This document shows positions 31,272 through 64,000 of a stretch of 64,000 nucleotides of DNA, piece by piece. The position numbers and the translations under genes are program-made. Within the stretch, counting starts at the first letter, position 1; the number at the start of each line of letters is the position of its first letter. Below the pieces are notes generated by a model, which made no database searches, was not told the DNA's origin, and saw nothing but the letters and a program-made list of their open reading frames with translations. This DNA is from Pleodorina starrii (Eukaryota; Chlorophyta; Chlorophyceae; Chlamydomonadales; Volvocaceae). Where the stretch lies: positions 1 through 64,000 of the forward strand of contig BRXU01000067.1 in the NCBI GenBank assembly GCA_030267565.1. Reading direction: 5' to 3'.

Positions 31272-31288
31272 CAGGCCACCGTGCCACA

Positions 31289-31331: not shown

Positions 31332-31332
31332 T

Positions 31333-31977: not shown

Positions 31978-32015
31978 AACCTCCAAGGCGACCCCGGTCA
32001 CAGAAGGAGCCTCCC

Positions 32016-32255: not shown

Positions 32256-32944
32256 GCCCACCCCCGACCACCTCCACCGGTCGGCCTTCGGTGGCACGAC
32301 AGATGAACGCCGGCGAGCAGCTGCGGGCGGAGAAGAAGACCCACCGGCTGATCCAGCTGCTGATCGGGCTAACCGGTTACGGCACCGCCTTGGCCCTGCT
32401 GGTCGGCTCCGGAGTAGGGGCCTCGAGCTGGAACGTGCTGGCCGAAGGCCTCGCCCACCGCTCCGGATTGACTTTCAGGATGGCCACGAACCTGATCGCC
32501 CTGGTGGTGCTGGTGTTCTGGATCCCGCTGCGCGAGCTCCCCGGACTGGGCACCGTCTTCAACGTCGTGCTCGTCGGTACTACCGCTGATGTCGCCGCCC
32601 ACCTCATCCCCGCCCCGGCCACACTGGTCCAACAGCTCACCCACTACAGCCTCGGGCTGGTCCTGTTCGCGTTCTTCGACGCCCTCTACCTCGGGGCCCG
32701 CTTCGGCTCCGGGCCCCGGGACGGACTGATGACCGGAGCCATCCGGGTGACCGACCAACCACTGTGGAAGGTGCGAACCAGCATTGAGGTCATCGTGGTA
32801 GCCATCGGATGGGTACTCGGCGGGACCGTGGGGGCGGGCACCCTGATCCTCGCCTTGGCAGCCGGCCCCCTGGTCCAGGCCTTCCTGCACCACACCACCG
32901 TGCCACTACGCATCGACAACCCACCTGCCTCAACGGCCCACTGA
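32252..32944 (+). CDS. YczE-like membrane protein (copy 2)
   Basis: A 230-residue membrane protein of the same family as its upstream neighbour, with FRMATNLIALVVLVFWIPLR and ALYLGARFGSGPRDGLMTGA. It has a longer basic N-terminal cytoplasmic leader (GEQLRAEKKTHRLIQLLIG). It is far closer to the protein at 44449 (most residues identical) than to the adjacent copy at 31333, so it probably arose by duplication of that locus. Translation depends on the overlapping small gene. Confidence 0.8.
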   Translation: MSPPPTTSTGRPSVARQMNAGEQLRAEKKTHRLIQLLIGLTGYGTALALLVGSGVGASSWNVLAEGLAHRSGLTFRMATNLIALVVLVFWIPLRELPGLGTVFNVVLVGTTADVAAHLIPAPATLVQQLTHYSLGLVLFAFFDALYLGARFGSGPRDGLMTGAIRVTDQPLWKVRTSIEVIVVAIGWVLGGTVGAGTLILALAAGPLVQAFLHHTTVPLRIDNPPASTAH

Positions 32945-44337: not shown

Positions 44338-44339
44338 CA

Positions 44340-44361
44340 GGCCAGGATCGGTTCTCTGGCC
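44340..44361. promoter_or_regulatory. Operator candidate in the second YczR/YczE spacer
   Basis: GGCCAG (44340-44345) and CTGGCC (44356-44361) form an inverted repeat in the 111-bp spacer. The shared GGCC core resembles the operator at 31289-31313. Confidence 0.45.
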
Positions 44362-44448
44362 CTGTTTCTCAAGTCCAGATACCCCCGAGGATGAACACCG
44401 TGTCCCGGACCGCCCGGGCACCGCCGCCCCCGCACCGAAGGACCCCCC

Positions 44449-45144
44449 ATGCCCGTATCCTCGTCCCCTCCGCCCACCGGCCAGCCACTGGTGGTGCGGC
44501 GGATGAGCGCCGGCGAGCAGCTGCGGGCCGAGCGCAAGCCCCGCCGGCTGATCCAGCTGCTGATCGGACTGGCCGGCTACGGCACCGCTCTGGCCTTGCT
44601 GGTCGGCTCCGGGCTGGGGGCCTCGAGCTGGAACGTGCTGGCCGAAGGCCTCGCTCACCGCACCGGGCTGTCCTTCGGGATGGCCACGAACCTGATCGCC
44701 CTGGTGGTGCTGGTGTTTTGGATCCCACTGCGCGAACTGCCCGGGCTGGGCACCGTCCTCAACGTCGTGCTCGTCGGTGCCGCCGCCGATGTGGCCGCCC
44801 ACCTCATCCCTGCCCCAGCCACGCTGGTCGAGCAGCTGACCTACTACAGCCTCGGGCTGGTCCTGTTCGCGTTCTTCGACGCCCTCTACCTCGGGGCCCG
44901 CTTCGGCTCCGGGCCACGGGACGGGCTGATGACCGGGGCCATCCGAGTGACGGGCCAACCGCTGTGGAAGATACGTACCAGCATTGAGGTCCTCGTAGTG
45001 GCCATCGGTTGGGCCCTCGGCGGGACCGTAGGTGCGGGCACCCTGGTCCTCGCCCTGACAGCCGGCCCCCTGATACAGAAGTTCCTGCGCCACACCACCG
45101 TCCCGCTGCAGGTCGATAGCTCAGCCACCTCAACGTCCCGCTGA
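44449..45144 (+). CDS. YczE-like membrane protein (copy 3)
   Basis: A 231-residue membrane protein nearly identical over its core to 32252-32944 (for example ALYLGARFGSGPRDGLMTGA and FGMATNLIALVVLVFWIPLR). Same N-terminal cytoplasmic leader GEQLRAERKPRRLIQLLIG. Five or so helices. Expected to be controlled by the divergent MocR. It forms a monocistronic unit, unlike copy 2 which is last in a three-gene operon. Confidence 0.8.
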   Translation: MPVSSSPPPTGQPLVVRRMSAGEQLRAERKPRRLIQLLIGLAGYGTALALLVGSGLGASSWNVLAEGLAHRTGLSFGMATNLIALVVLVFWIPLRELPGLGTVLNVVLVGAAADVAAHLIPAPATLVEQLTYYSLGLVLFAFFDALYLGARFGSGPRDGLMTGAIRVTGQPLWKIRTSIEVLVVAIGWALGGTVGAGTLVLALTAGPLIQKFLRHTTVPLQVDSSATSTSR

Positions 45145-46540: not shown

Positions 46541-47960
46541 GGGACTGTCGCTTTAACGGTGTAAGAGGCGTTTCCATGGTTAATGGTTCTCCGCCGCCGG
46601 CATGCGGTCGGCGAAGGTGATGGCGAAGGCGTTCAGCGCCGGCTTCCACCGTGTGACCCATCGTGTCTGTCCGGTGCCCTTCGGGTCCAGGGATCGCACG
46701 ACGAGGTACAGGGTCTTCATCGCGGACTGCTCGTTGGGGAAGTGGCCACGGGCCCGTACCGCACGGCGGAACCGGGCGTTGAGGGACTCGATGGCGTTGG
46801 TCGAGCAGATCACCCGTCGGATCTCCACGTCGTAGTCCAGGAACGGCACGAACTCCGTCCACGCCCCGCGCCAGAGTCGGCTGATCGCCGGGTACCGGGC
46901 GCCCCACTTGTCCTCCAGCTCCTCCAAAGCGGTCTCGGCGGCTGCGGCGGTGGGGGCGGTGTAGACGGGCCTGAGGTCCTTGGCGAGCTCGTCCCAGTAC
47001 TTCCTCGAGGCATAGCGGAACGTGCCGCGGATCAGGTGGATGATGCAGGTCTGCACCGTGGCCAGCGGGAACACGGCATTCACGCTGTCGGGCAGGCCCT
47101 TGAGCCCGTCGCAGACCACGAAGAAGACGTCCCTCACACCCCGGGACTTCAAGTCGGTAAGCACCGCGTACCAGAACTTCGCGCTCTCCCCGTCACCGTC
47201 CCCGGCCCACATCCCGAGGATGTCCTTGTGTCCGCCCAGGTCCACCCCGATCGCGGCGTAGACGGGCCGGTTGCGGACCTGCCCGTCGCGGACCTTGACC
47301 ATGATCGCGTCGATGAAGATCGCCGCGTAGACCTGCTCCAGCGGACGGGCCCACCACGCGGTCATCTCCTCGATCACCCGATCGGTGATCCGGGTGACGG
47401 TGTCCTTGCTGACCTCGGCGCCGTAGACCTCGCCCAGATGCGCGCTGATCTCCCCGGTGGTCAGACCCTTGGCCGACAAGGACAGCACCACCTGGTCCAG
47501 GTCCGTCAGCCGCCGCTGGCGCTTCTTGACGATCACCGGCTCGAATGACGCCTCGCGGTCGCGGGGGACCTCGATCTGCACGGGGCCGGCGTTGTCGGTG
47601 ATCACCGTCTTGGATCGTTTCCCGTTGCGCGAGTTGCCGCGGTTCCGTCCCTCGGGCTCGCCTTGCTCGTAGCCGAGGTGTTCGTTCATCTCCTCGTCCA
47701 GGGCGGCCTCGACGACCATCTTGGTCAGCTGCTTCAACAGCCCGCCCGGGCCGGTCAGGGCCGCCCCGCTGGCGCGGGCGGCGCGGACCAGTTCCCGGAC
47801 CGTGTCCTGGTCGGCCGCGCTCAGCTGCGCGTTCTCTTCCGGCTCGTCACCGGGTGTCGGTGGGCTCACGTCCACCAGTGTCTCGATCTTCTCGCTCATG
47901 TCGACCCTCCAACCCCACTCGGGGCGATTGGGCCTCTTACACCGTTACTGCGATAGTCCC
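46541..47960 (-). mobile_element. Intact IS256-family element with 8-bp target duplication
   Basis: About 29-bp imperfect terminal repeats begin GGGACTGTCGCTTTAAC at 46541 and, on the complement, GGGACTATCGCAGTAAC from 47960. CCCAGGCC lies directly outside both ends (46533-46540 and 47961-47968), an exact target duplication. Length 1420 bp. Confidence 0.9.
46580..47899 (-). CDS. IS256-family (MULE-type) transposase
   Basis: A 439-residue intact DDE transposase. The core includes IFIDAIMVKVRDGQVRNRPV (first Asp), DVFFVVCDGLKGLPDSVNAV (second Asp) and ICSTNAIESLNARFRRAVRA (catalytic Glu). The N-terminus has the DNA-binding region with LGYEQGEPEGRNRGNSRNGK. Since the frame is whole and the terminal repeats and duplication are intact, this element is likely active. 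ATG at 47899. Confidence 0.9.
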   Translation of the reverse strand: MSEKIETLVDVSPPTPGDEPEENAQLSAADQDTVRELVRAARASGAALTGPGGLLKQLTKMVVEAALDEEMNEHLGYEQGEPEGRNRGNSRNGKRSKTVITDNAGPVQIEVPRDREASFEPVIVKKRQRRLTDLDQVVLSLSAKGLTTGEISAHLGEVYGAEVSKDTVTRITDRVIEEMTAWWARPLEQVYAAIFIDAIMVKVRDGQVRNRPVYAAIGVDLGGHKDILGMWAGDGDGESAKFWYAVLTDLKSRGVRDVFFVVCDGLKGLPDSVNAVFPLATVQTCIIHLIRGTFRYASRKYWDELAKDLRPVYTAPTAAAAETALEELEDKWGARYPAISRLWRGAWTEFVPFLDYDVEIRRVICSTNAIESLNARFRRAVRARGHFPNEQSAMKTLYLVVRSLDPKGTGQTRWVTRWKPALNAFAITFADRMPAAENH

Positions 47961-51816: not shown

Positions 51817-52549
51817 AGCTTCATGATCCCCTAGTCGTTGTAGGACCACACGAACCGAAACACATCCGTGCGGGTTACTGGCATCCAGGCGGGCGCCTCC
51901 GTCCTTGATGCTCACTGCATGAACCCCCAGTTGAGAACTTTCGGTGCGGCGGTCCCTTACTGTGTGGCTCAGGACGGGAGGCGGGCTGGCGCCGGTCATC
52001 GACGGAATCATCGTGACCGCCGCGCTCTTCGCGCCGACCGGGGACCTGGTGGTGTTCTTCAATCCTCCCGACGGATCCCGTTACGCCTGGATCTATGACC
52101 GTCAGTACCTCCCGTCAAGCGAGGCGGAAAGGGTGGAATTCGCTCGCCTGTCCCTACTGGGGGATCTTGTTCCTCCCGCCCGGTGGGCACAGCCCTTGAC
52201 CGGGCGGACCTGGCGCCGTGGGCCGCCCGGTTCGGTGACGTGCGCTGGGGCGGAAGGACTAACCAGCCGTGACTGCCGGTCGGATAGGAACCTCTTTCAA
52301 TACATGGCGGCCCGCTCGGTTACACCGGCGTGTGGACCGGCCCGGTCGACACGTCACAGACAGTCCAACCGCGGGCAAATGGCGTCAGGAAAGCCGTGAG
52401 TCGGACCCGCCGGATCAGCACCATCATGGTCCTCACCTCATAGACCCCCACGCCCTCACGGTGTAAGACCAACCGGCCTCACACATCCATAATGAAAAGC
52501 CGAACAAGTCCTGTGGTTAGTCCCTTAAGCTGATGGCCGAATTAGCGTC
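51817..52549. other. 733-bp region; contains one arm of the 27-bp inverted repeat
   Basis: A plus-strand frame at 51944-52399 (YAWIYDRQYLPSSEAERVEF) has some protein-like character but an implausible C-terminus, so I leave it uncalled. The perfect 27-bp repeat is at 52470-52496. DNA between 52200 and 52470 looks like decayed mobile-element or chromosomal sequence. Confidence 0.4.
52470..52496. repeat. Left arm of a perfect 27-bp inverted repeat
   Basis: Begins CAACCGGCCTCACACATCCA and is the exact reverse complement of 63948-63974. The two arms bracket about 11.5 kb of accessory DNA. Confidence 0.9.
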
Positions 52550-53419
52550 CTAAGCGAGATTCCCTGGCGTTCCTGTTGAGACAGGTAGGGAAATTCCCAA
52601 TGTCCCGTACAGCGCAAAAACCGTTTCTTGGATGGCACTGGACTTGAAAACGATCCCGAGATCAATCATGTCGTCGAATGTGGCGACGCCAGCTTTGACC
52701 ATCTGCACGACTCCGTTGACTTGACGGGTATGAACGGCTGCGACAACGCCGAGAAGCGACATTCGGGTGCCGACACGCGTCACTCCATCGCGAGTTGTGT
52801 AGGTGCCGCGGTCATAAAGCACAACCGGGCTACCACTTGACCCCGGGAATACCGAAGCGTCGATCAAGAAGGCCGGCAGGTTGTTATAGTCGTTGAAGAT
52901 CGGTGTCGCGGTCTGCCCACGTCGTGCGATTGGCAGCATGGAAGCTTGGTCGAACAGGCCGTTTGGGTATCCAATCATCGTAATTTGCTCGATAGCGTCG
53001 AGTGAGTCCGCGGTCTCTTGTGTTGCAAGGTGCTCGGGGTCAAACCCTCGATAGAACGGGGCGGCACCGTTATCTACCATCGCTTTTAGAATTTCTCCAA
53101 AGAGCATGGCGCCGATGTCGACCTTTGAGTCAGGGTGGCCCACCCAGGTTTGGGCGTTGAAGCCAGTAACCACCATGCGTGTACCACGACTGGCTGGCTG
53201 GCTGGCGTTCTCCGCGGCAGCCATGGTGAAAGCAACTTGATGCGCCCCGTCTAACACATGTTTGTTTGTGATTAAAACTGGCAGTGTTGAGCCGTTTTCG
53301 CCGGGATAATTAATAATGAAACCAGTTCCGGTGGACCTGGCTGTAGGGGTAAGTGCTTCGATAAACACTGTCGTGAAGAAAAGCTGATCCGCGATTGTTT
53401 CAACTGGGGGTCGCACCAT
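52550..53419 (-). CDS. Trypsin-like serine protease, intracellular type
   Basis: A 289-residue protease with the chymotrypsin-fold triad: His in LITNKHVLDGAHQVAFTMA, Asp in DSKVDIGAMLFGEILKAM and Ser in ASVFPGSSGSPVVLYDRG. It has no signal peptide, so it should act inside the cell, as do many defence-linked trypsin-like proteases. Met at 53419 (MVRPPVETIADQLFFTT) is chosen over Met at 53572. It sits just inside the 27-bp repeat with no adjacent partner on the same strand. Confidence 0.7.
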   Translation of the reverse strand: MVRPPVETIADQLFFTTVFIEALTPTARSTGTGFIINYPGENGSTLPVLITNKHVLDGAHQVAFTMAAAENASQPASRGTRMVVTGFNAQTWVGHPDSKVDIGAMLFGEILKAMVDNGAAPFYRGFDPEHLATQETADSLDAIEQITMIGYPNGLFDQASMLPIARRGQTATPIFNDYNNLPAFLIDASVFPGSSGSPVVLYDRGTYTTRDGVTRVGTRMSLLGVVAAVHTRQVNGVVQMVKAGVATFDDMIDLGIVFKSSAIQETVFALYGTLGISLPVSTGTPGNLA

Positions 53420-53749
53420 GAACACAGCATACGTCTTGTCAGTGGATTGGCGCCGTCGCCAGCTACACAAGTCACCGCTTTGGCCGTTGATATACCCCGC
53501 TCCGTGGCATTCCAGGTTGGAGGCTACATCGGCCCATAACGCGCCCGTTAGCCGGACGGCCTCGAAGCGGGACATCGCACTTACCGACTGCGCCCGATGA
53601 TGCACGTTAGAGGGACCTCCAGTGAGTCCGGACGCGCCCATGCGGAGCTCGCGCAACCATATGTGGTTGCCATGCCCGTTTACCCCGTGCGATGAAATGC
53701 CCGCTCAGGCACGGTATGTGCATCACGATGTCCACAGGCACCGACGGCT

Positions 53750-54343
53750 TCAGATAGTCGTCGCTTGAGGTAGCTCCCGGATCCGCCGGTAGAGGGTGGC
53801 TCGGGACATCCCGAGGTCGCGGGCGACTTGGGTGGCCGGCTCCCCGCCGTCGATGAGCCGCAGGGCATTGCGGATCTGGGAGTCGGTGAAGGTCTGGCGC
53901 CGGCCGCCGAGGTCTTTCCCGGCAGCACGGCGTTTGGCCACCGAGTCGGTGATCCGCTCCCGCTTGATCTCCAGCTCCATCTGCGCCAGAGCAGCCATCA
54001 CGGTGAACACCATCGAGCCCATCGGGGTCGCGGTGTCCACGTCTCCTCCACCAAGGTTGAGCACCCGCAACCCGGCACCTCTGCCCCGCAGCGCCTCGGC
54101 GAAGGTCAACATGTTCTGCGTCGACCGCCCCAACCGGTCCAACGTGGTGATGACCAAGGTGTCGCCATCTTCGAGCGCGGCCACCGCCTTGTCGAAAGCC
54201 GGACGTGACGCGCGCCCTCCAGACACTCCGCTGTCGATATAGATGTCATCGCGTCGCACGCCTGTGTTCAGCAGGTCAGCCACTTGACGGTCTGCGTCCT
54301 GTTGCCGCGTCGACACGCGCGCACACCCGATCAGCTTCCCCAT
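53750..54343 (-). CDS. Serine recombinase (resolvase/invertase family)
   Basis: A 197-residue site-specific recombinase. The N-terminal catalytic domain has the active Ser in LIGCARVSTRQQDADRQVAD, the GVSGGRASRPAFDKAVAALE region and LVITTLDRLGRSTQNMLTFA; the C-terminal HTH is AGKDLGGRRQTFTDSQ and RDLGMSRATLYRRIREL. ATG at 54343. It lies immediately outside the Tn402-like terminus at 54447 and may resolve or invert a nearby site. Confidence 0.85.
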   Translation of the reverse strand: MGKLIGCARVSTRQQDADRQVADLLNTGVRRDDIYIDSGVSGGRASRPAFDKAVAALEDGDTLVITTLDRLGRSTQNMLTFAEALRGRGAGLRVLNLGGGDVDTATPMGSMVFTVMAALAQMELEIKRERITDSVAKRRAAGKDLGGRRQTFTDSQIRNALRLIDGGEPATQVARDLGMSRATLYRRIRELPQATTI

Positions 54344-54446
54344 GTCCACCCCATCTGTCTCGCAACCAACGTTGAGTATCCGATTCTAGGGGCACAGATA
54401 AAACACATAGGTGCGAGACACTGGGTGCCCCGGAATCTTGCGGGTG

Positions 54447-54471
54447 TGTCAGTTTCCGAAGTCGGCTGCAC
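54447..54471 (+). repeat. Tn402/Tn5053-like 25-bp terminus, left
   Basis: Starts TGTCAGTTTCCGAAGTCGGC and resembles the class 1 integron/Tn402 terminal repeat (TGTCGTTTTCAGAAG...) at about 21 of 25 positions by eye. Two more weak repeats of the TTCCGAAG type follow inward. The partner is at 58432-58456 in inverted orientation. Confidence 0.55.
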
Positions 54472-54521
54472 AGACTTCCGAAGTCCTCCGCAGCGTTATC
54501 AGAAGGTCCCGTCAAAGGATC

Positions 54522-54662
54522 CTCGTTTCCGCCGACATCACGGCACAGTGCGAAACGATGCTCGACAACGTGGAGACCTTGCTGGGCGAAGTCGGGCTCG
54601 AGCTGAAGCACCTGGTGCGCACGGTGCTGTATCTGACGGACGACGCCGACGTGGTGCGTTGA
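54522..54662 (+). pseudogene. RidA-family fragment
   Basis: The frame shows DNVETLLGEVGLELKHLVRT, typical of the middle of RidA/YjgF imine deaminases, and stops at 54662. Both the N-terminal part and the last third are absent, so it is a relic carried on mobile DNA. Confidence 0.55.
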
Positions 54663-54900
54663 ACACCGCCCATGGCCGCCGGCTGAGCATTCCCTACCCT
54701 GCACGGACCACTGTGCAAGTCGCCGGACTACCCCTGGGCGCCGCAAGTCCAGGGAAACGCCGTCGTGGCGTTCCTGTGACCGAGCCGTCGTCACCGCACA
54801 GGCGATGACACGTCCGGGCAGCAGGCGACGGTGCTGTTCTCCGGGACTGGTCACGTCGTGCGCGTAAGCCGGTAGGCCCGCGCACCGGTGCGGCTGGTGG
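54663..54900. other. 238-bp spacer, no gene recognised
   Basis: No convincing coding frame or hairpin. Likely decayed DNA between the RidA relic and the acetyltransferase. Confidence 0.4.
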
Positions 54901-55428
54901 TCAGTGCTCCAGCAGCTGGGCCATGAGGTACTCGTCGATGCATCGGTCCTGCCGCACCAGGGAACCACGACGTAGCCCCTCGACCTGATAGCCGTGACGC
55001 AGATAAAGGTTCAAAGCGCGCAGGTTGTCGGCCATCACGGTCAGCTCCAGACGCCTCAGGCCCCGCCGGGCCGCCTCGGCGCGAGAGCTCTCCAGCAGGG
55101 CCGAGCCCAGCCCTCGTGAGGCGTGGGCGGCGTCCACGCCAAGCGCCAGGGATCCCACATGTGCGACCCGCCGGTAAGGTGTGACCGCCACAGACAGCCA
55201 CCCCACGAGTTCAGCCGGCCCGCCGGATGGCCCGTGAGGGTCTTCCGCCACCAGGTCGAAGCTGCCGCGATTCCCCTGGGCCGCCAGGCGGTGCCGCAGC
55301 GGGCCGGGATCCGGGTGGCGTTCGCCCGGTTCGAACAGCATGAACGAGGACTGGTGGTCCAGGCGCTGCTGCAGCGTCAGCAGCGCCGGAGCGTCGTCAG
55401 GAACGGTCAGACGGATCATGCCCTCCAT
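54901..55428 (-). CDS. GNAT-family N-acetyltransferase
   Basis: About 175 residues with a clear acetyl-CoA loop (GVDAAHASRGLGSALLESSR) and the C-terminal NLRALNLYLRHGYQVEGL. ATG at 55428 has an AGGGGGC site, whereas a GTG at 55464 overlaps the resolvase stop. The two lie head to tail on the same strand and could be co-transcribed. The substrate is unknown; mobile elements often carry such antibiotic- or stress-acetylating enzymes. Confidence 0.75.
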   Translation of the reverse strand: MEGMIRLTVPDDAPALLTLQQRLDHQSSFMLFEPGERHPDPGPLRHRLAAQGNRGSFDLVAEDPHGPSGGPAELVGWLSVAVTPYRRVAHVGSLALGVDAAHASRGLGSALLESSRAEAARRGLRRLELTVMADNLRALNLYLRHGYQVEGLRRGSLVRQDRCIDEYLMAQLLEH

Positions 55429-55460
55429 GGTGCCCCCTGTCCCATGACGGCCGGCAACGC

Positions 55461-56093
55461 TCACGTGATCCGTCTCTGGGCCAGCAGCTTGGCCCCGTCC
55501 TCGCGCAGCTCACCCGTCGGGGAGACGTGGCGGTAAAGGGTCTGGCGGGTGACCCCGAGCTCCTTGCAGAGTTCCCCCACGTTGGTGCCCGGCTGTCCCA
55601 TGGATGCCGCGGCCAGCCGGACCTTGGCCGGGGTCATCTTGTACGGACGCCCGCCCTTGCGGCCTCTCGCCCGGGCGGAGGCCAGACCTGCGGTGGTGCG
55701 TTCGGAGATCAGCTCGCGTTCGAACTCGGCCAGGGCGGCGAAGATCCCGAACACCAGCTTCCCGGAGGCGGTGGTGGTGTCGATCGCCGCACCTTGACCG
55801 GTGAGGACCTTCAGCCCGATGCCGCGTTCGGTGAGCTCGTGCACCACGTTGACCAGATGGCGCAGGTTCCTCCCCAGCCGGTCCAGTTTCCACACCATCA
55901 GGGTGTCCCCGGACCGCAGAGCCTTCAGGCAGGCGGCCAGCTGCGGGCGGTCGTCCTTGGCCCCGGAGGCCTTGTCCTCATACAGTGCGCCCGCCTTGAT
56001 GCCGGCGGCGAGCAGCGCGTCGCGCTGCAGGTCGGTGGTCTGAGACCCGTCGGCCTTCGACACCCGCATGTACCCCACCAACACGGCGCTCAC
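55461..56093 (-). CDS. Serine recombinase (TnpR/TniR-like resolvase)
   Basis: A 210-residue resolvase. Active-site Ser in VLVGYMRVSKADGSQTTDLQ, then LMVWKLDRLGRNLRHLVNVV, EFERELISERTTAGLASAR and a C-terminal HTH (LCKELGVTRQTLYRHVSPTG). Similar in layout to Tn3/Tn5053-type resolvases. GTG start at 56093 is adjacent to the candidate res site. It lies within the Tn402-like termini, consistent with a TniR role. Confidence 0.85.
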   Translation of the reverse strand: MSAVLVGYMRVSKADGSQTTDLQRDALLAAGIKAGALYEDKASGAKDDRPQLAACLKALRSGDTLMVWKLDRLGRNLRHLVNVVHELTERGIGLKVLTGQGAAIDTTTASGKLVFGIFAALAEFERELISERTTAGLASARARGRKGGRPYKMTPAKVRLAAASMGQPGTNVGELCKELGVTRQTLYRHVSPTGELREDGAKLLAQRRIT

Positions 56094-56215
56094 CCTTCAT
56101 CACTTATACGGCCGTTTGCGTGACAGGACGAACGCAAACCCGGTGAAGCTGCATCACTGTCACTTAACCCGTTACTTATCCTACGTCCTGCAAACGGATT
56201 TATCGTGGCATTGTG
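56094..56215. promoter_or_regulatory. Candidate res/promoter region next to the resolvase
   Basis: Contains the inverted repeat GTTTGCG at 56114-56120 with CGCAAAC at 56133-56139, and a further TCCTGCAAACGGA at about 56187-56199. This layout is expected of a res site upstream of a resolvase gene. Recombination is not demonstrated. Confidence 0.45.
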
Positions 56216-56367
56216 TGACAGACCCCCAGGCGTTCGATGGCGCATTGGTGGATGCGTGTGTCGTAGGGCATGCAAGGCCTGACGGACAGCCGTGGCCGAG
56301 CGTGCTGTGCAATGACTACGCTGAAGACCATTGGAATGATCTAGAGACGTTTGGATGGGAGACCTTG

Positions 56368-56844
56368 GTGCCGTTCGAGGTGTTCGACAAGAGGATGACT
56401 CCGCTGGCGAAGGCGCCCAGTGTCACGATCCAGAAGCGGGGCGTGATCTCGCTGAACAAAGCCGCCCATGACCTGATGGGCGGCGCCGAAACAGTGGAGA
56501 TGCTCTACGACCAGGACCGTCAGGTCATGGCCCTGCGCCCAGCCGATGACTCGTCCCCGCATGCCTATGCGGTCCGCACCGGTTCCAAGCGCGGGCCTGG
56601 TCAAGCTATTGTCTCGGCCACCGCCTTCACGCAGCACTACGGGATCGACACCACCGCCACCAGGCGGTGGAAGCCGTTCGTCGAGGATGGCATGCTCTGC
56701 GTGGATCTCACACAGGAGGGCGTCGTCATCACCGGCAATCGCGCCAAGGCCCTGAGCGCGTCAAGCGCAGGCGAAGGCCTCGACGTCTCCACAGCAGATT
56801 CCCCCTCTGTTCCGCCGACGCAGAACAACGCCGACCGGCCCTGA
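56368..56844 (+). CDS. AbrB-like conserved protein, paralogue A
   Basis: A 158-residue protein, same length and alignment as 58600-59076. It has a swapped-hairpin-like first half (APSVTIQKRGVISLNKAAHD) and a second half with VSATAFTQHYGIDTTATRRW and EDGMLCVDL. I see a resemblance to AbrB/MazE-type DNA-binding proteins, not a firm assignment. GTG at 56368, aligned with the ATG of the paralogue and after GGGAG, is chosen over the longer frame from 56068, which overlaps the resolvase. The upstream TGCAATGACTACGCTG resembles the paralogue's promoter region. Confidence 0.65.
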   Translation: MPFEVFDKRMTPLAKAPSVTIQKRGVISLNKAAHDLMGGAETVEMLYDQDRQVMALRPADDSSPHAYAVRTGSKRGPGQAIVSATAFTQHYGIDTTATRRWKPFVEDGMLCVDLTQEGVVITGNRAKALSASSAGEGLDVSTADSPSVPPTQNNADRP

Positions 56845-57076
56845 GTCCCACCCGCACTGCAGCGGCATGAGGTCCTGACTGCCGGCAGCGGGGCGATTAC
56901 CTCCGCACGAGGCACCGCCATCACCCACACAGCATCCGGCACGCCCAGCAGGCCCGCTCCCCCATCCGGTCCCTCGACCGTCACGTTGTGCACAGGACTA
57001 TGGGACAACGCCACCGGTCGTGCACACGAGTATGGAAACCCAAGATGACCGAACTCGACTGCACACACGCGGGCCT
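56845..57076. other. 232-bp spacer, no gene recognised
   Basis: Ends with CCGAACTCGACTGCAC near 57050, which is loosely like the inner part of the Tn402-like termini, immediately before the IS3 left end. Confidence 0.4.
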
Positions 57077-57109
57077 TGACCCCGAATCGTGGACACGGTG
57101 TCGTTTCGG

Positions 57110-58018
57110 TTATGCCGCTTCCGTGAGCGTAGCGGAGGCGGCGGTTTCGTAGGCGTTCGGGGCGATGTTCCCGATCGCGGAGTGGCGTCGGCGGGTGTTG
57201 TAGCGGTTCGCCCATCGGAACACGGCCCGGTAGGCGGTGGGCGCGTCGGGGAACGCGGCGCGGCCTTCGAGCAGCTCACGCTTGAGGGCCGCGTTGAGGC
57301 TTTCGGCGAGGGCGTTGTCGGCCGATGAGCCGACCGCTCCCATCGACTGCCTCACCCCGAGCTGCTCGCACAGCGCTGCGTAGGACTTCGATGTGTAGAC
57401 CGAGCCGTGGTCGGAGTGGAACACCGCCCCGGCCAGCGTCCCACGCTCGCACCAGGCGACCTTCAGCGCGTCCTCGACGAGCTCGGTGCGCATGTGCCCG
57501 GCCATGGCCCATCCGGCGAGCTTCCGGGAGCCCAGGTCGATGCAGGAGGCGAAGTAGAGGTTCGTGCCGTCCTCGAGGGGCAGGTAGGTGATGTCACCGA
57601 CGTAACGGCAGCACGGCGCGCCGGTGCTGAAGTCGCGGCCGATCAGGTCGGGGAACCGCCTGCCGGACTGGTCCGGGATCGTGGTCCTCACGCGTTTGCG
57701 CAACCGGATCCCGGCCAGAGCGTGCTCGCGCATCACCCGGGCCACGCGCTTGTGGTTGACCCGGTCACCGGCCGGCACGTCCTCGTTGAGGTCGGCCGTG
57801 ATCCGGGGCGCGCCGTAGGCGCGGTCCCCGCCCCGGGCCGGGTCCTGCAGCACCCGGATCCGCGATACCAGCGCCGCGTCGGCCGCCGCCCTGGCCGCCC
57901 GTGCCGGCTCGGCGGCCAGCCAGGCGTAGAACGACGACCGGGCGATCTCGATGACCTCGCACAACCGCTTCACGCCCCAGGCGTCCTTGTGGTCCTCGAC
58001 GAACTGGAAGCGGTTCAC
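57110..58018 (-). CDS. IS3-family transposase orfB
   Basis: A 302-residue integrase-like DDE protein. The core has YVGDITYLPLEDGTNLYFAS, VFHSDHGSVYTSKSYAALCE (the second Asp is in this region) and NALAESLNAALKRELLEG (catalytic Glu). The start GTG at 58018 overlaps the orfA stop, typical of IS3 programmed frameshift to OrfAB. The 427-residue longer frame includes a shadow of orfA and is not a real N-terminus. Intact, so possibly active. Confidence 0.85.
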   Translation of the reverse strand: MNRFQFVEDHKDAWGVKRLCEVIEIARSSFYAWLAAEPARAARAAADAALVSRIRVLQDPARGGDRAYGAPRITADLNEDVPAGDRVNHKRVARVMREHALAGIRLRKRVRTTIPDQSGRRFPDLIGRDFSTGAPCCRYVGDITYLPLEDGTNLYFASCIDLGSRKLAGWAMAGHMRTELVEDALKVAWCERGTLAGAVFHSDHGSVYTSKSYAALCEQLGVRQSMGAVGSSADNALAESLNAALKRELLEGRAAFPDAPTAYRAVFRWANRYNTRRRHSAIGNIAPNAYETAASATLTEAA

Positions 58019-58344
58019 CAGTTCGTCTCCCCGGCGAAATACTTCGCCGCCTGGCGGAGGATGTCCCGCTTCTGGGCCAGCTTGGCCTGCTCGGCCCGCA
58101 ACGCCGCGTTCTCGGCCTCCAACCGGGCGATCCTCGCCCCCGGCGACTCCGGCCGGCCCTGCGTCGGAGCGGCCGTGGCCGCGCCCGCCGTCGTCCCGGA
58201 GCCGAACTTGTCGACCCATTCCTTCAACGCGCCCCGGGACACGCCCAGATCCGCTGCGATCCCTTTGAGCGTCGCGCCCGGGGTGGACTCGTACAAGTCC
58301 ACCGCCCGGCGACGGAACTCGTCGGTGTAGTTCTTCCTGGCCAT
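58015..58344 (-). CDS. IS3-family transposase orfA
   Basis: A 109-residue HTH subunit: KNYTDEFRRRAVDLYESTPG and IAADLGVSRGALKEWVDKFG are the helix-turn-helix, followed by a coiled coil (RLEAENAALRAEQAKLAQKR). It overlaps orfB by the TGA/GTG arrangement at 58015-58018, so the OrfAB fusion would form by frameshift there. Confidence 0.85.
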   Translation of the reverse strand: MARKNYTDEFRRRAVDLYESTPGATLKGIAADLGVSRGALKEWVDKFGSGTTAGAATAAPTQGRPESPGARIARLEAENAALRAEQAKLAQKRDILRQAAKYFAGETNW

Positions 58345-58431
58345 CCTTGGATTCTCGCTTCTCCCAGCATCGTGCTGGATTCCGCGTGTCCAAGATCAGG
58401 GGTCAAGCGCCCGCGCCATCACGGGCCTGAC

Positions 58432-58456
58432 CGTGCAGCCAACTTCGGAAAACGAC
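58432..58456 (-). repeat. Tn402/Tn5053-like 25-bp terminus, right
   Basis: On the complement it starts TGTCGTTTTCCGAAGTTGGC and differs from the left copy at about three positions. It is inverted relative to 54447-54471, giving a putative element of about 4.0 kb. No 5-bp target duplication is visible. Confidence 0.55.
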
Positions 58457-58599
58457 ACGGGCGAAAATTTTCCGGATGAGACGTCTCGCATCCCATGCCT
58501 TCCAAGACGCATGTCCCACACGACGGTGGGTGCTCCGACACTGACTGCAATGGCTACGATGCGCACGACAAGAATCAGGCGTGAGCTATAGGAGAAACA

Positions 58600-59076
58600 A
58601 TGCCGTCCGAAGTGTTCGACAAGAGAATGACACCACTGGCCAAGGCGCCGAGCGTGACGATCCAGAAGCGCGGGGTAATCTCGCTGAACAAGACAGCCCA
58701 CGACCTCATCGGCAACGCCGAGACAGTGGAGCTGCTCTACGACCGCGATCGCCAGGTGATGGCACTGCGCGCTGCCGATGACTCCTCCCCGCACGCCTAT
58801 GCGGTCCGGAGCGGGTCCAAGCATGGGCCTGGTCAGGCGATCGTTTCGGCCACTGCGTTCACCGCCCACTACGGCATCGACACCACCGCCACCCGGCGGT
58901 GGAGGCCCTTCATCGAAGACGGCATGCTCTGCGTGGACCTCACCACCGAGGGCACGATCATTACCGGGAATCGCACCAAAGCCACGGCATTGTTAGATTC
59001 GGACGAAACGGATGACTTCTCTGATAAGGATGCTTCGGTTGATTCACCGGTTGGGGCTCGTTCCGAAACCGCCTAA
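58600..59076 (+). CDS. AbrB-like conserved protein next to lsr2, paralogue B
   Basis: A 158-residue protein that begins MPSEVFDKRMTPLAKAPSVT after a strong AGGAG. Middle motifs GVISLNKTAHDLIGNAETVE and IVSATAFTAHYGIDTTATRR match paralogue A. The tail is divergent and acidic. It immediately precedes lsr2 (54 bp), so the two may be one transcript, and a partial copy of its end plus the leader of lsr2 recurs at 63864. A DNA-binding role is inferred from the AbrB-like pattern only. Confidence 0.65.
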   Translation: MPSEVFDKRMTPLAKAPSVTIQKRGVISLNKTAHDLIGNAETVELLYDRDRQVMALRAADDSSPHAYAVRSGSKHGPGQAIVSATAFTAHYGIDTTATRRWRPFIEDGMLCVDLTTEGTIITGNRTKATALLDSDETDDFSDKDASVDSPVGARSETA

Positions 59077-59130
59077 AACCCAGCTGAAGCACTACTCCCC
59101 TGTCGGGGAAGATTGAAAGGAACAGCCTTT

Positions 59131-59460
59131 ATGGCTCAGAACTTTGAGGTCCTTCTCGAGGACGATCTCGACGGCGGCCCCGCCGAGGAGACCGTGACCA
59201 TCGCCCTGGATGGCAAGGACTATGAGATCGACCTTTCCACCAACAACGCCGAGAAGTTGCGCGAGACACTGCGCCCCTACGCGGCCGCCGGCCGCAAGAC
59301 CACACGCAGCGGCGGCGCCCGCAGCACCGTGAATCGTGCGGCCAAGGGGGATCCGGACACCGCGAAGATCCGGGCCTGGGCCAAGGAGAACGGGCGCGAG
59401 GTCTCCGACCGGGGCCGCATCCCCCAGAGCATGCGGGGCACCTACTACGCCACCCACTGA
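59131..59460 (+). CDS. lsr2: Lsr2 nucleoid-associated / xenogeneic silencing protein
   Basis: A 109-residue protein. The N-terminal dimerisation domain has VTIALDGKDYEIDLSTNNAE, and the C-terminal DNA-binding domain ends with IRAWAKENGREVSDRGRIPQ, which contains the R-G-R-like AT-hook motif and the conserved W. Lsr2 silences AT-rich foreign DNA in actinobacteria. ATG at 59131 follows AAAGGAAC. Notably it lies immediately upstream of the most AT-rich DNA in the window, so it may silence that island. Confidence 0.9.
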   Translation: MAQNFEVLLEDDLDGGPAEETVTIALDGKDYEIDLSTNNAEKLRETLRPYAAAGRKTTRSGGARSTVNRAAKGDPDTAKIRAWAKENGREVSDRGRIPQSMRGTYYATH

Positions 59461-59520
59461 GCCACTTACAACACCATTTTTACAGCGGCACTTCGGCGCC
59501 CTTCTAAAAATCACTCTAGG

Positions 59521-61314
59521 ATGATTATGCCAAATGAAACGACTGAATTAACAGTTCAAGGGCAAGGAATACAGAACCTGTTTACCCTTTATTCAACAAA
59601 CACTTTTATGGTGAATCGCCGATACCAACGTAAATTAGTATGGGCTGTCGAAGAAAAAGAACGATTGATAGACTCAATCGCAAAAAATTTGCCCATACCA
59701 TTGATATTACTTGCAGAACATGCAGGAGAAAGTTCATCTGGATTTGAAATCATTGACGGGCTTCAGCGACTCAATACAATATTTTCATTTCTTGAAAATG
59801 AGTTTAGCTATAAGGGAAAGTATTTTGACCTAGAAACACTCGCCGACACTAAGTTTTTGCGAGACAATGGCGGGCTAGTTCAAAAAACACCGGTTCTAGA
59901 TAGAACCGAATGTCTAGCTATATCAAATTATCAGCTGCCTGTATCAACATACCGCTCGGCAACAGAGGCTTCTGTAGACGAAGTTTTCCGAAGAATTAAT
60001 TCTTCTGGTCGCAAACTTAGCTTGCAAGAAATTCGCCAGGCGGGGGTGACTTCCGACTTGGCAACTTTAGTGCGACGCTTGAGCGCATCAATCCGTGGTG
60101 ACGCTTCCATGTCAGACATTTTACCACTCAGTGAAATGCCAAAAATTAGCATCACTAGTCGTGATCTTCCCTACGGAATACAGAGCGATAATATTTTCTG
60201 GATCAAAAATGGAATCTTAGATCGCGATGCCGTAAGAGAATCCCGCGATGAAGAACTAGTGTTGGATATCGTCTTGGATCTTGTTCTCGATCCCATTGCG
60301 GTAAGTGGCAGTGATTATAGGAACTCAGCTTACGGTAGAGATTCAAAGACAACGACATCCTCGGATGTAGTTGCAGCTCGCCTCAATATTATAGGCGCGG
60401 AAAATATTTCTGAACGCTTCATTCTCACACTTGATTTAATACGTCAAATGATTGACCGCACTGAAACGCCTTGGTCCAAATGGGTTATTACTCAACAAAA
60501 CCCACGAGGGATTCCGCGCTACTTTCATGCAGTTTTTGTTGCGCTGTATGAGTTAATGTTTTCAGAAAATATGGAGGTCAGTGATCTTGAAGGCCTAAAC
60601 AGAGAACTAAAGAATTTTTGGGATCGAGACCTAACCATACCTGGCGGTGGAGGCACTTGGGGATCCAATCGCAAGCGTCCGCTTTTCGATGCCATTAAGG
60701 CACACCTTCGACCATTTTTTAAAAAACGTAACGACCCTCTTTCTGTGGCAATTCGGGAAGCAGCTACACAGTTCGAAATTGAACTTCAAATGTCACTGAC
60801 AGAAAAATCATTGTTCGAGCTTAAACAAGGTTTCACTAGGCTGGACGCTTCAAAACAGTTCGACGATGAAGCCTTCGAAAAAGTAATGCGAACTGCTAGT
60901 GCTATGGCGAATCATGGCAAATCGTCCAGTGGACTTATTATTTTTGGTGTGGCGGACGATGAAATTGATGCCCGACGAGTTGTCCAGATACACAAAATAA
61001 AGTCGTATCCGGTGGGTAGTTATCAGGTTACTGGCACCCAGCATGAAATTAAGCTTCTTAAAAGAACGACTGATGAACACCTTCGATGGCTGGTTGACAG
61101 AGTTAGAAGATCAAAGCTTGAGGAATCTTTCGCAAATCGACTCGCCGCAAGCCTTGAAGTATTCGATTACCATGGCTACTTAATTTGGACCTTATCACCA
61201 CAAGCTGGTGAAAATCCCACTTCATGGAATGGCCAATTTTTTGTGCGCCGAGGAAATTCCACCGTTGAGGTAACTGGTCAGGAGACGATGGAGCTTATGC
61301 GGCGATTTATTTGA
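59521..61314 (+). CDS. DUF262 and AlbA_2 (Schlafen-like) fusion protein, defence candidate
   Basis: A 597-residue protein in AT-rich DNA. Residues about 20-200 are DUF262 (ParB/Srx-like), with RRYQRKLVW (33-41) and IDGLQR (78-83), the nucleotide-binding or nuclease signature of GmrS-type proteins. Residues about 425-560 resemble the AlbA_2/Schlafen domain: LFELKQGFTRLDASKQ, then ASAMANHGKSSSGLIIFGVAD. DUF262 proteins occur in anti-phage restriction systems, and Schlafen domains in RNA-directed defence. Alternative starts are at 59521 and 59527. No membrane helix. Confidence 0.75.
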   Translation: MIMPNETTELTVQGQGIQNLFTLYSTNTFMVNRRYQRKLVWAVEEKERLIDSIAKNLPIPLILLAEHAGESSSGFEIIDGLQRLNTIFSFLENEFSYKGKYFDLETLADTKFLRDNGGLVQKTPVLDRTECLAISNYQLPVSTYRSATEASVDEVFRRINSSGRKLSLQEIRQAGVTSDLATLVRRLSASIRGDASMSDILPLSEMPKISITSRDLPYGIQSDNIFWIKNGILDRDAVRESRDEELVLDIVLDLVLDPIAVSGSDYRNSAYGRDSKTTTSSDVVAARLNIIGAENISERFILTLDLIRQMIDRTETPWSKWVITQQNPRGIPRYFHAVFVALYELMFSENMEVSDLEGLNRELKNFWDRDLTIPGGGGTWGSNRKRPLFDAIKAHLRPFFKKRNDPLSVAIREAATQFEIELQMSLTEKSLFELKQGFTRLDASKQFDDEAFEKVMRTASAMANHGKSSSGLIIFGVADDEIDARRVVQIHKIKSYPVGSYQVTGTQHEIKLLKRTTDEHLRWLVDRVRRSKLEESFANRLAASLEVFDYHGYLIWTLSPQAGENPTSWNGQFFVRRGNSTVEVTGQETMELMRRFI

Positions 61315-61360
61315 ACTATTTTCTGATTCGCTTTATCCATTCCTGATCGAACCTCGTCGA

Positions 61361-61400
61361 GGAACCCGGCTCACTAGCAATGGTGAGTCGGGTTCCTTTG
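61361..61400 (+). terminator. Terminator after the DUF262 gene
   Basis: GGAACCCGGCTCAC (61361-61374) pairs with GTGAGTCGGGTTCC (61383-61396) with one mismatch around an eight-base loop, then TTTG. It lies 47 bp after the stop codon. Confidence 0.7.
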
Positions 61401-61479
61401 CCCTGGACCATTGAAAAGCCGACCGAACTCGACCTTTTCTCCTATGGGAGATCGGCCGTTATCGGTTGAGATGTTCGGG

Positions 61480-61684
61480 TTAGGTGCGTACTGCGTTCTC
61501 GATCACTGCTCGAGCGCTGCCGTCCTGCTCGGTAAGCTTCTCGATCAGATCGGAGACGTCCTGGGCCACCCGCACACCGAGCTGGATCGTAGATTGCCAG
61601 CGTAGCCATCGGGAGTTCCACCGCCTGTGCCGCTTGTACCGGCGGGGTGGACACCACCGGTGTCGCGGGTTGGGGTGTCTTCAT
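61480..61684 (-). pseudogene. Frameshifted small plasmid-type protein fragment
   Basis: Starts MKTPQPATPVVSTPPVQAAQ at 61684; after a one-base shift near 61600 the frame holds IQLGVRVAQDVSDLIEKLTE and ends at 61480. About 68 residues. It resembles small ribbon-helix-helix or partition-associated proteins on plasmids, without firm assignment. It is probably a relic of a mobile element. Confidence 0.4.
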
Positions 61685-61959
61685 GTCCGGGGGGGGTGCG
61701 TTGTCGGCCGAGTCGATGTGCTTATCGGGTGTCGGGCTGGGCCAGCGGTGCTGTAAATCCTCATAAAGGCCAGCCGGCCAGCGAAGCACTTCAGAGATGG
61801 CCCCTTAAGTGGTTGCAGGCCACAGGACTGCCGGTAAGTCGCACAACAACCTGGCCACCGTGAAGTACCACCCACCGGCCGAGGGTAATGATCCCGGGGC
61901 CTCCACCCTATGTCGCTCTAGTGTCGTAGAACGGCCGATCTGTAGGGCATGATGTCAAC
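61685..61959. other. 275-bp spacer upstream of the AAA gene
   Basis: No gene recognised. It must hold the promoter of the AAA/TOPRIM pair, but no clear -10/-35 could be assigned. Confidence 0.35.
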
Positions 61960-63153
61960 ATGACTCAAGCTCTAACCAAAATTGTGGCCAAGAACTTTCG
62001 GTCCTTAAAGTCCGTCGAAGTTCCCCTGTCGCCCTTGACGGTCCTCGTGGGCCCAAATGGAGCGGGCAAATCGAATCTACTAAAAGTCCTGTCATTTGTG
62101 CGTGATGCGGCTCGACTGATCGATGTGGACGAAGCCATTGCTCGTGAAGGCGGATTTGAAAGAATCCAACGCCAGGATGGAAACAATAAGCCAGTTCATT
62201 TGGAGCTCCATGGGCTTGTTACCAGCAACTCCAGCGAAAGTGCACTGGACTCCTATGAAATCAGACTGACACCGAGAAAAGGAAGAGTCAGTCGGGCAGA
62301 AACTCTTCAGTTCAAGAGGACGCAAGGTCCGGGTCGACGACTCACTATCAGCGTGTCACGTGACCAAGTGTCAATTGCCGATGATCAAAGTCAGGGAAAT
62401 GCGTCACCGCACGTTGTTTCGCTTGCTTCGACTCAAACCTCCGGCCTGGGCACGATAGCTCGACTCGGCAGCACCGAACTGGGTGAAGCCCCTCGGGAGT
62501 TTTTCGATTTTCTTTCAAGCATTCGATACTTGGATCCAGACGTCAATGCCGCTAAACAACCAGCCCGAAAAAATAAAAGGTCCGCTCTTGCAGACGATGC
62601 ATCAAATCTGGCAGCAACACTGCTTTCGCTTAAAACTGAGGACGAAGATAGCTTCAATGATTTGATTCGCGACCTCAAGCAATGCCTCCCAGGCCTTGAA
62701 GGCATTGACATGGAGGAAATTGGCGGAGCTTCGAGATCCGTCGTAGTGAGATTGCGGGAAGCAGGGATATCCACCCCTCTGGAGCTCGCCGATGCATCAT
62801 TTGGAACCGTACGGATGCTGTCCCTCTTGGCGGCCCTCCATGATCCCATGCCCCCCAAGTTGACTATTATTGAAGAAATTGATCATGGACTGCACCCCTA
62901 CGCTTTGGATGTTTTGATCGAACGGATGCGGGTTACGAGCAAAAGAACACAACTGATTATTGCTTCGCATTCCCCTACTTTTGTAAATCGATTGGAGCCT
63001 TCGGAAATCGTCATTTGTGACCGAGATCCAGAGACGGGGGCCTCAATCATCCCAGCGCGCAACCCCGAAGAGCTGGCACAGGCCATCGCGGCAACAGACC
63101 TTGGGTTGGGCGAGCTGTGGTTTTCCGGCACTGTGGGCGGTGTCCCCCTGTGA
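61960..63153 (+). CDS. AAA ATPase of the AAA_21/OLD-like type, defence candidate
   Basis: A 397-residue ATPase. Walker A GPNGAGKSN is at residues 31-39, the Walker B region LTIIEEIDHGLHPYALDVLI near 300-320, and LIIASHSPTFVNRLEPSE carries the switch His. The N-terminal KIVAKNFRSLKSVEVPLSPL is the usual RecF/OLD-like opening. It overlaps the next gene by GTGA (63150), so they act together. Such ATPase/TOPRIM pairs include PARIS, OLD/Gabija-like and RloAB-type systems. ATG at 61960. Confidence 0.85.
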   Translation: MTQALTKIVAKNFRSLKSVEVPLSPLTVLVGPNGAGKSNLLKVLSFVRDAARLIDVDEAIAREGGFERIQRQDGNNKPVHLELHGLVTSNSSESALDSYEIRLTPRKGRVSRAETLQFKRTQGPGRRLTISVSRDQVSIADDQSQGNASPHVVSLASTQTSGLGTIARLGSTELGEAPREFFDFLSSIRYLDPDVNAAKQPARKNKRSALADDASNLAATLLSLKTEDEDSFNDLIRDLKQCLPGLEGIDMEEIGGASRSVVVRLREAGISTPLELADASFGTVRMLSLLAALHDPMPPKLTIIEEIDHGLHPYALDVLIERMRVTSKRTQLIIASHSPTFVNRLEPSEIVICDRDPETGASIIPARNPEELAQAIAATDLGLGELWFSGTVGGVPL

Positions 63154-63815
63154 GCCCCCGTAGAAATCAAGGATCCAGAAGAAGACCTTCAAACGTCCAA
63201 GGTCAAGGAGTTATACTAGTTTTTGGAGAGAATCCAAATGACTCCAAAAGCGTCCGAGAGTTGGTTTTATGGAAGAACGAGGGCCTCTCTGATAACCGCA
63301 TTCAAGTCCGACGCGATCCCCCGTCTCTGACGCGAGATGCGGGAAGTAACCCTATCCGGTCATGGGTGAACAATATTCAAAGTATTGTTCAGGCGGAGGA
63401 AGCACAGGGACACCGAGTTGTGGCCGTACTTGTCCACAGGGATGCCGACAAAGCTGACGTCGATGGAGCGGAAGAGCAAAGACTTCTGGAGCAGTTGGCT
63501 CCTATTCAAAATAGTAAGCCCGTTGTCCCGGTTCAAATGATGGAGGCCTGGTGGCTTCTTTTCCCGGATGCCATTGAAAGCGTGAAGCCCACTGCTTGGA
63601 GGAACACTGTTCCCCGCCGAAGCCAGAATGTTGAAACAATAGTGGACCCAAAGGCGAAGTTGAAACAATACACGCGTTCAAATAGGTCTCATCATGAGTA
63701 TATCGAGTCAGATTCATTAACAATTGCACAGAAAATTCGGGAAACCAACCCGTCGCCGTCAGGCCGAAGCGCATCGTTCGACCGCTTTGTCACAATGGTT
63801 CAAGACATAAAATAG
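63150..63815 (+). CDS. TOPRIM-like (DUF4276/RloB-type) partner protein
   Basis: A 221-residue protein with a TOPRIM-like pattern: an early acidic VILVFGENPNDSKSVRELVL, then VVAVLVHRDADKADVDGAEE with the DxD pair, and VVPVQMMEAWWLLFPDAIES, typical of DUF4276. A nuclease role is likely but catalysis is not shown. GTG at 63150 overlaps the ATPase stop, giving strict coupling. It resembles, in layout only, the AriA/AriB and RloA/RloB pairs. Low GC content, as for the neighbours. Confidence 0.75.
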   Translation: MSPRRNQGSRRRPSNVQGQGVILVFGENPNDSKSVRELVLWKNEGLSDNRIQVRRDPPSLTRDAGSNPIRSWVNNIQSIVQAEEAQGHRVVAVLVHRDADKADVDGAEEQRLLEQLAPIQNSKPVVPVQMMEAWWLLFPDAIESVKPTAWRNTVPRRSQNVETIVDPKAKLKQYTRSNRSHHEYIESDSLTIAQKIRETNPSPSGRSASFDRFVTMVQDIK

Positions 63816-63863
63816 GTCTGTCAAAACAGTGTTCACCCATGCCAAGACTGATTTGCCGGCTGA

Positions 63864-63941
63864 GGATCGTTCCGAGCCCGCCTAATACCGAACTGCGGCA
63901 CTACACCCCTACCGGGGACATGGAAGGGAACAGCTCTTATG
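63864..63941 (+). repeat. Duplicated copy of the end of the AbrB-like gene and the lsr2 leader
   Basis: The end of a reading frame (DRSEPA then stop) followed by a leader with CCCCTACCGGGG and a start ATG at 63939 resembles 59059-59133, where the frame ends RSETA, the leader has CCCCTGTCGGGG, and lsr2 begins. The lsr2-like frame after the ATG ends after eight codons. Confidence 0.65.
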
Positions 63942-63947
63942 GGGCCC

Positions 63948-63974
63948 TTCATTATGGATGTGTGAGGCCGGTTG
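63948..63974. repeat. Right arm of the perfect 27-bp inverted repeat
   Basis: Starts TTCATTATGGATGTGTGAGG and is the exact reverse complement of 52470-52496. It extends right into DNA beyond the window. Confidence 0.9.
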
Positions 63975-64000
63975 CCGCCGGCGGCGAGCAGGGCGCGTAG

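Follow-up and report, generated by a model that had tools for sequence, protein, structure and literature searches.

In the 64,000-nt window analysed here (positions 1 to 64,000 of contig BRXU01000067.1, referred to below as C67, in the Pleodorina starrii assembly), two 27-bp arms facing each other across 11.5 kb form a perfect inverted repeat: 52470-52496 (CAACCGGCCTCACACATCCATAATGAA) is identical at 27/27 positions to the reverse complement of 63948-63974. We consider it very probable that these arms are fossils of two insertions by a subfamily of IS110 insertion sequences that is guided by RNA to the tips of ISL3 elements. At the level of sequence, comparison with plasmid relatives shows both arms to consist of the same end of one IS110-group element joined to an ISL3-type tip, in opposite orientation. 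ISL3 tips, where both arms lie, are apparently the target of this subfamily, and the data strongly support insertion there via a putative bridge (seek) RNA. The subfamily would insert at these tips because, in the RNA predicted upstream of its transposase gene, the target loop carries two guides, GGCTCTTC on the left and another on the right, which match the ISL3 end on either side of a TC core.

A preliminary description of this DNA had reported the repeat as exact and beyond chance, and both statements were borne out. Searching with a 24-bp part of the arm at up to 3 mismatches gave 2 matches, against a mean of 0.00 in 100 dinucleotide-preserving shuffles. The arm pair extended inward to 45 nt in a repeat search (84% alike), and similarity was lost directly outside both arms, again as described. 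A pattern search of the 136-Mb assembly, whose counts are lower bounds, placed the 27-mer (up to 3 mismatches) only at 52470-52496 and 63948-63974. Among plasmids, exact copies were found in Kocuria rosea 13 and Kocuria flava, both at IS110 ends, and at up to 3 mismatches the 27-mer occurs once in each whole plasmid.

The left copy was characterised by a plasmid search with 52420-52750, which matched nine records: K. flava plasmid 1 along the entire query at 97%, K. rosea 13 plasmid unnamed3 with a match that stops precisely where the arm ends on its inner side (52496), five Rhodococcus plasmids matching 52442-52508 or less, and two Arthrobacter plasmids, both confined to the protease part. 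Annotation was read for two of the Rhodococcus regions, and both have an IS110 transposase 235 bp downstream of the match. K. rosea 13 carries a nearly whole IS110 (about 3042-4433 of locus L008, ~1.39 kb, its transposase matched in two pieces) that ends in the identical 27 bases, and a more diverged left-end remnant lies at 16493-16542 of the same locus. K. flava holds the same truncated form as the window, with which it is collinear across 52281-54444 at 90%. Similarity of the left copy begins at 52289 against the K. rosea element and at 52281 against K. flava; its transposase gene and right end are missing. Of the 13 other elements counted, K. flava among them, 12 (all but L095) have a GGCTCTTC-like tip in the position equivalent to that of the tip beside the left copy.

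Extending the right end beyond the window, a check that the preliminary description had proposed, revealed an ISL3 transposase pseudogene past the arm. The element containing it (63943-65356) is 85.6% identical to an ISL3 of K. flava over 1413 aligned positions with 34 gap columns, and the transposase of the latter falls in PF01610 (DDE_Tnp_ISL3, E 6e-53); the family of the right element is assigned through its DNA identity to K. flava, the window copy being a pseudogene. From 63966 on, the sequence matches annotated ISL3 transposases in Kocuria, Microbacterium and Rhodococcus plasmids. The first 32 nt of the element, from 63943, are identical to the IS110 left end and tip of K. rosea 13, after which ISL3 sequence follows. 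The right inverted repeat of this ISL3, GGCCCTTCACAGATGAGCATGGG, is intact, while its left repeat reads GGCCCTTC, then 24 IS110 left-end bases, then transposase coding sequence; the K. flava ISL3 has both repeats, with GTTATCC (7/8) on both sides. The switch from IS110 to ISL3 falls in GGCCGGT, a stretch present in both parents, and a deletion between these short matches would therefore be the simplest origin. The adjoining end of the interval (63650-63942) had no homology to plasmids at E 0.01, so that no uninterrupted site of the right ISL3 insertion was found.

These observations are consistent with the following history. An ancestral plasmid would have carried two ISL3 copies, their tips facing across the present interval, and an IS110 would have inserted into each of them. 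On the left, the IS110 body and the ISL3 would later have been lost, so that ~210 bp of IS110 remain next to the tip; in the right copy, a deletion between two GGCCGGT stretches, one in the IS110 and one in the ISL3, would have removed all but 24 bp of the IS110. The two leftover ends would now read as a perfect 27-bp inverted repeat, and the interval between them would be mosaic plasmid DNA that these ends did not move.

Relatives of the element helped to define both the group and its target. A Rhodococcus relative (L010:1699-2763) encodes the recombinase domains of the IS110 group (DEDD_Tnp_IS110, PF01548, E 1e-26; Transposase_20, PF02371, E 3e-19), which the window copies, having no transposase, lack. 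In relatives a noncoding region of ~285-315 nt separates the left end from the start of the gene, and the right end lies at most ~45 nt from the end of the transposase match. Elements in Rhodococcus, Brevibacterium, Garicola, Miniimonas and Leucobacter also sit at GGCTCTTC tips. Scanning genome contigs with the Rhodococcus transposase yielded 68 loci, and ends were read in 20 of these: every locus of 78% identity or more whose left end is present (six: L015, L017, L018, L019, L021, L071) adjoins GGCTCTTCA, as does L028 at 53% identity; L016 (79%) has its left end cut; L024, L077, L079 and L080 are partial matches (62-73%) with no left end in the locus; and the remaining eight, none above 60% identity, lack an exact tip within 420 bp, with a looser GGTCCTTCG in L029. 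Searching the genomes behind the earlier loci added one Brevibacterium aurantiacum site (L091). A pattern scan of 396 genomes of one order gave matches in 7, four of them already known; L093 and L094 were new, and L092 (3 mismatches), which has no IS110 end, was taken as chance. The Kocuria version of the pattern gave one match, L095, in 295 genomes of one family. An intact source copy was not found in the assembly that contains the window, where two IS110-type matches were only 31% and 35% identical. Separately, the IS110 of L094 adjoins at least 2 CRISPR-type repeats (GTCCCCGCGCGAGCGGGGGTGATCCC) upstream of its tip, and its transposase frame runs into unrelated sequence.

Uninterrupted counterparts of three target sites were found: GGCCCTTC followed by ACAGATGAG (beginning ACAG) in the K. 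flava ISL3, GGCTCTTC followed by GTAAATGAG (beginning GTAA) in a Brevibacterium spongiae ISL3, and AAGAGGTCTTC followed by ATGTCC in a Paenarthrobacter IS481. Most elements begin, after the TC core, with A(C/T)TAT and end in AGGAGTG before a second TC; L028 and L095 deviate at the right end, the core of L095 there being CC, not TC. Among ten elements for which the right-end flank was available, four (L010, L016, L028, L093) have an ISL3 transposase domain directly beyond it, and three (L008, L015, L077) have ISL3 end sequence, L077 only via similarity to L015. The N-terminal fragment of L015 has no Pfam match; at the DNA level it corresponds to the beginning of an annotated ISL3 element.

The noncoding region upstream of the transposase could be aligned across genera, and RNAalifold predicted a consensus structure of 59 pairs. 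For 44 of these 59, 96.3% of cells pair and six pairs changed on both sides. With this 44-pair set, 0 of 500 shuffles reached the pairing value, the both-side changes or the covariation score, and 1 of 500 did so on the other two measures; when the structures were slid by 1 to 3 columns, 31-51% of cells paired. Rfam gave no match at the gathering score in L001, L002, L083 or L088. The loop that separates helices 2 and 3 carries a putative target guide on each side: the 5' side holds the GGCTCTTC guide, its first G predicted to be paired, and the 3' side a variable stretch ending in GA, for example CTGTGA, CTGCGA or TTTACGA. A predicted structured RNA with target guides for both flanks, as expected of the IS110 group, is thus present, the right guide of L028 excepted.

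We then compared guides with targets. The left guide matches the adjoining tip at 8/8 positions in 8 of 14 elements, at 7/8 in 5 and at 6/8 in 1; this count omits L016 (left end cut), L024, L077, L079 and L080 (no left end in the locus), L014 (near-identical to L010) and L028 (left guide not placed), and the K. rosea guide in it was taken from the alignment. The right guide of the window's left copy was read by hand and stands outside the count. Right guides predict ACAG in K. rosea, GCAG in Rhodococcus, GTAA in Brevibacterium and ATGT in L095, while that of Garicola predicts GGAG where GGAC is observed. Over six guide classes, 19 of 24 bases agree and one class fails; when guides and targets were re-paired in all 720 ways the mean was 9 of 24, and only the true pairing (1 of 720) reached 19. 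The L095 guide, AGAGGTCTTC, differs, and that element is inserted at exactly this sequence, located at the start codon of an IS481-type transposase; the frame downstream has no Pfam match, and the IS481 label comes from DNA matches. For donor guides, resemblances were seen by eye, without controls, between ATAGGAGTC in the noncoding region and TATAGGAGTGTC at the right end, and between ATAGTGA in the noncoding region and the complement of the left-end TCACTAT. As a separate observation, at about 1440-1502 of L103 an inverted repeat (GACCTCTTAG...CTAAGAGGTC) lies upstream of an IS481 transposase start and ends beside the start codon; the insertion point of the redirected IS110 relative is equivalent to the end of this repeat.

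Several points weigh against RNA-guided insertion at ISL3 tips as the origin of the arms. Eight related sequences served both to derive the structure and to count its pairs, and the count leaves out a 3' hairpin of 15 predicted pairs. The guides come from manual reading at set columns of the alignment, and their six classes were defined once the data had been seen. The left-arm guide of K. flava matches its own tip at only 6/8 positions, and in L028 the right guide matches at 0/4 and the left guide was not placed. Of the ten right-end flanks, L095 is in an IS481 and not an ISL3, and L017 and L024 have no recognised ISL3 partner. Within the window, no ISL3 body accompanies the left tip, so that ISL3 is represented there by the tip alone, and the right ISL3 has no 8-bp duplication, its flanks being TCTTATGG and ACATTGCC. 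As the window copies have no transposase, nothing here shows activity.

The preliminary description had offered two readings, termini of one large transposon or ends of two related elements, and the evidence favours the latter, in the form of the left ends of two IS110 copies of the same subfamily in opposite orientation. That the arms are the terminal inverted repeats of a single 11.5-kb transposon would fit the exact inverted match and the recombinases and accessory genes inside, but we regard it as very improbable. Geometrically the arms do bracket the interval, but they do not together mark the outer boundary of one mobile unit: the right arm sits within an ISL3 copy extending a further 1.4 kb, the left arm forms the outer portion of a longer IS110 fragment whose start is ~190 bp outside it, and each arm is an internal piece of a composite of IS110 end and ISL3 tip. 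In addition, K. flava carries the left arm and the adjacent 2 kb of the interval, with the protease and resolvase block, yet has a single 27-mer in its whole plasmid; no target duplication was seen, and the only transposase among the interval proteins scanned is that of an IS3 element. A regulatory or recombination site common to both places and unconnected with insertion sequences would also give an exact, short repeat with only two copies found in the assembly; we give this practically no credence, since the other exact copies, in the K. rosea 13 and K. flava plasmids, are the ends of a nearly whole and a truncated IS110, respectively. A short chromosomal repeat was rejected, the 20-mer CCTCACACATCCATAATGAA having no exact match in the contigs of the genome collection.

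The facing ISL3 tips could alternatively mean that two ISL3 copies form, or once formed, a composite transposon carrying the interval, to which the IS110 insertions were incidental. We think this unlikely: the tips differ (GGCTTTTC and GGCCCTTC), which makes it probable that the two ISL3 copies were different elements; the left ISL3 has been lost, and with it any chance to examine its outer end; and only the left part of the interval is common to K. flava. An event compatible with two IS110 insertions, and additional to them, is that the IS110 copies, while intact, recombined as homologous inverted sequences and flipped the segment between them. Two copies of one element in opposite orientation would allow this, and the missing duplication of the right ISL3 would fit flanks having been exchanged in the past. 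The K. flava and K. rosea plasmid regions compared, however, included no relative with the order reversed, and such an inversion has in our view a small but appreciable chance of having occurred.

Insertion of IS110 copies into ISL3 tips would involve a mechanism of a known kind. As described in excerpts of PMC11208160 and PMC11187229, the bridge RNA of IS621 has left and right target guides in one internal loop, and ISEc21 is an IS110-family element with a seekRNA. The present subfamily resembles both in its IS110-family transposase, the long noncoding region upstream of the gene, the placement of both target guides in one internal loop and a core dinucleotide within the pairing. Relative to IS621 as excerpted from PMC11208160, the core is TC as read here instead of CT, and the target is an ISL3 element end instead of REP sequences; in contrast to both elements, donor guides here were matched by eye only and the subfamily is known from sequence alone. 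The same excerpts mention IS4321 and IS5075, which insert in Tn21 ends. These are a precedent in the same superfamily for targeting the terminal inverted repeat of another transposable element, but they belong to the IS1111 group, with a downstream RNA region, subterminal repeats and Tn21-family ends as targets, against the IS110 group and ISL3 ends here. ISKrh6, an IS110-family element of Kocuria rhizophila with an upstream RNA region and an estimated length of 1,476 bp (PMC12500396, in excerpt), is likened by description only to the K. rosea copy (~1.39 kb), both being IS110 elements in Kocuria. No description of an IS110 element in ISL3 ends was found in the open-licence literature searched with the terms used, and the word ISL3 has 0 occurrences in each of PMC11208160, PMC11187229 and PMC12500396; the ISL3-tip target is thus not found described in that literature.

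We posit, at about even odds, that this actinobacterial IS110 clade comprises RNA-guided hyperparasites of other insertion sequences, with bridge RNAs tuned to the tips of ISL3 subfamilies and, on one occasion or more, naturally retargeted to the beginning of an IS481 transposase gene. If so, the right guide would change with the ISL3 subtype, and each insertion would break a terminal repeat or a transposase start and thereby immobilise the host element. The analysis of the arms replaces the tempting but mistaken reading of an island with perfect ends by a specific history, and cautions that exact inverted repeats in mosaic plasmids can represent independent insertions of one site-specific element. 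The natural series of guides and targets across genera, including the redirected relative, should be useful for studying how IS110 guide RNAs change target.

Table 1. Features of the arms and of the interval between them (window coordinates).
Feature	Position	Strand	Basis or remark
Truncated IS110-group left end, noncoding bridge-RNA region (putative)	52281..52493	-	plasmid matches, alignment of relatives
Putative right target guide CTGTGA, predicting TC followed by ACAG	52354..52359	-	aligned with the right guide of relatives
Putative left target guide GGCTTTCC, 7/8 against its own tip GGCTTTTC	52388..52395	-	alignment
Left arm: outermost IS110 left-end bases, core GA and 1 target base	52470..52496	+	
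ISL3-type inverted-repeat tip GGCTTTTC, core TC included	52494..52501	-	adjoins left IS110 remnant
Trypsin-like protease, PADLOC candidate defence family PDC-S45	52550..53656	-	PF13365 E 6e-9; PDC-S45 E 1e-84
Serine resolvase 1	53750..54349	-	PF00239
Serine resolvase 2	55461..56093	-	PF00239 E 3e-45
IS3-family insertion sequence between two diverged direct repeats	57110..58393	-	rve PF00665; plasmid matches annotated IS3
GmrSD_N and Schlafen/AlbA_2 protein	59521..61314	+	PF03235, PF04326
HEC-01A/HEC-01B two-gene candidate defence system (AAA_21 ATPase and partner)	61960..63815	+	HEC-01A E 4e-124, HEC-01B E 6e-23; PF13304
Outer tip GGCCCTTC of right ISL3 copy	63943..63950	+	element 63943-65356 of contig C67, beyond window end
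24-bp IS110 left-end footprint, rest of IS110 absent	63951..63974	+	
ISL3 transposase pseudogene, C-terminal coding end	63966..64000	-	continues to ~65250 in contig

The interval itself reads as mosaic plasmid DNA with defence genes, not as a unit (Table 1). Its best plasmid matches are Kocuria plasmids, and the examined part of C67 (178,219 bp) is Kocuria-like plasmid DNA within a 136-Mb assembly of eukaryotic size, probably from a bacterial associate or contaminant. When related plasmids were compared over the interval, a check likewise raised in the preliminary description, K. flava shared its left part only. K. rosea 13 shares 52289-52496, 53674-54322, 54327-54492 and 55477-56771, with other DNA between these blocks. 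K. flava and two other K. rosea plasmid loci lose homology to the window at 54420-54444, immediately upstream of resolvase 1. The remaining locus compared, in K. rosea 13 plasmid unnamed3, stays homologous up to 54492 and is broken near 54325 by a different IS110 element. The breakpoints of the first three loci fall within 25 bp, as if modules had been exchanged at the res site of resolvase 1. For the right part of the interval, no counterpart was found beyond 58940 among the 20 of 180 plasmid matches listed.

Further repeats were noted within and outside the interval. Segments 56369-56668 and 58601-58900, which flank the IS3 element, are diverged (84%) direct copies of one gene segment, and the corresponding proteins (258 and 158 aa) have no Pfam match. 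A 936-nt inverted repeat pair, 87% alike and 1.3 kb apart, lies at 22966-23901 and 25222-26157. The 29-nt inverted repeats at 46541-46569 and 47932-47960 (90% alike, ~1.4 kb apart) could be the ends of another insertion sequence. Finally, several direct-repeat families between 31048-32737 and 44114-44937, with spacings of 12.2 and 13.1 kb, suggest a diverged duplication.

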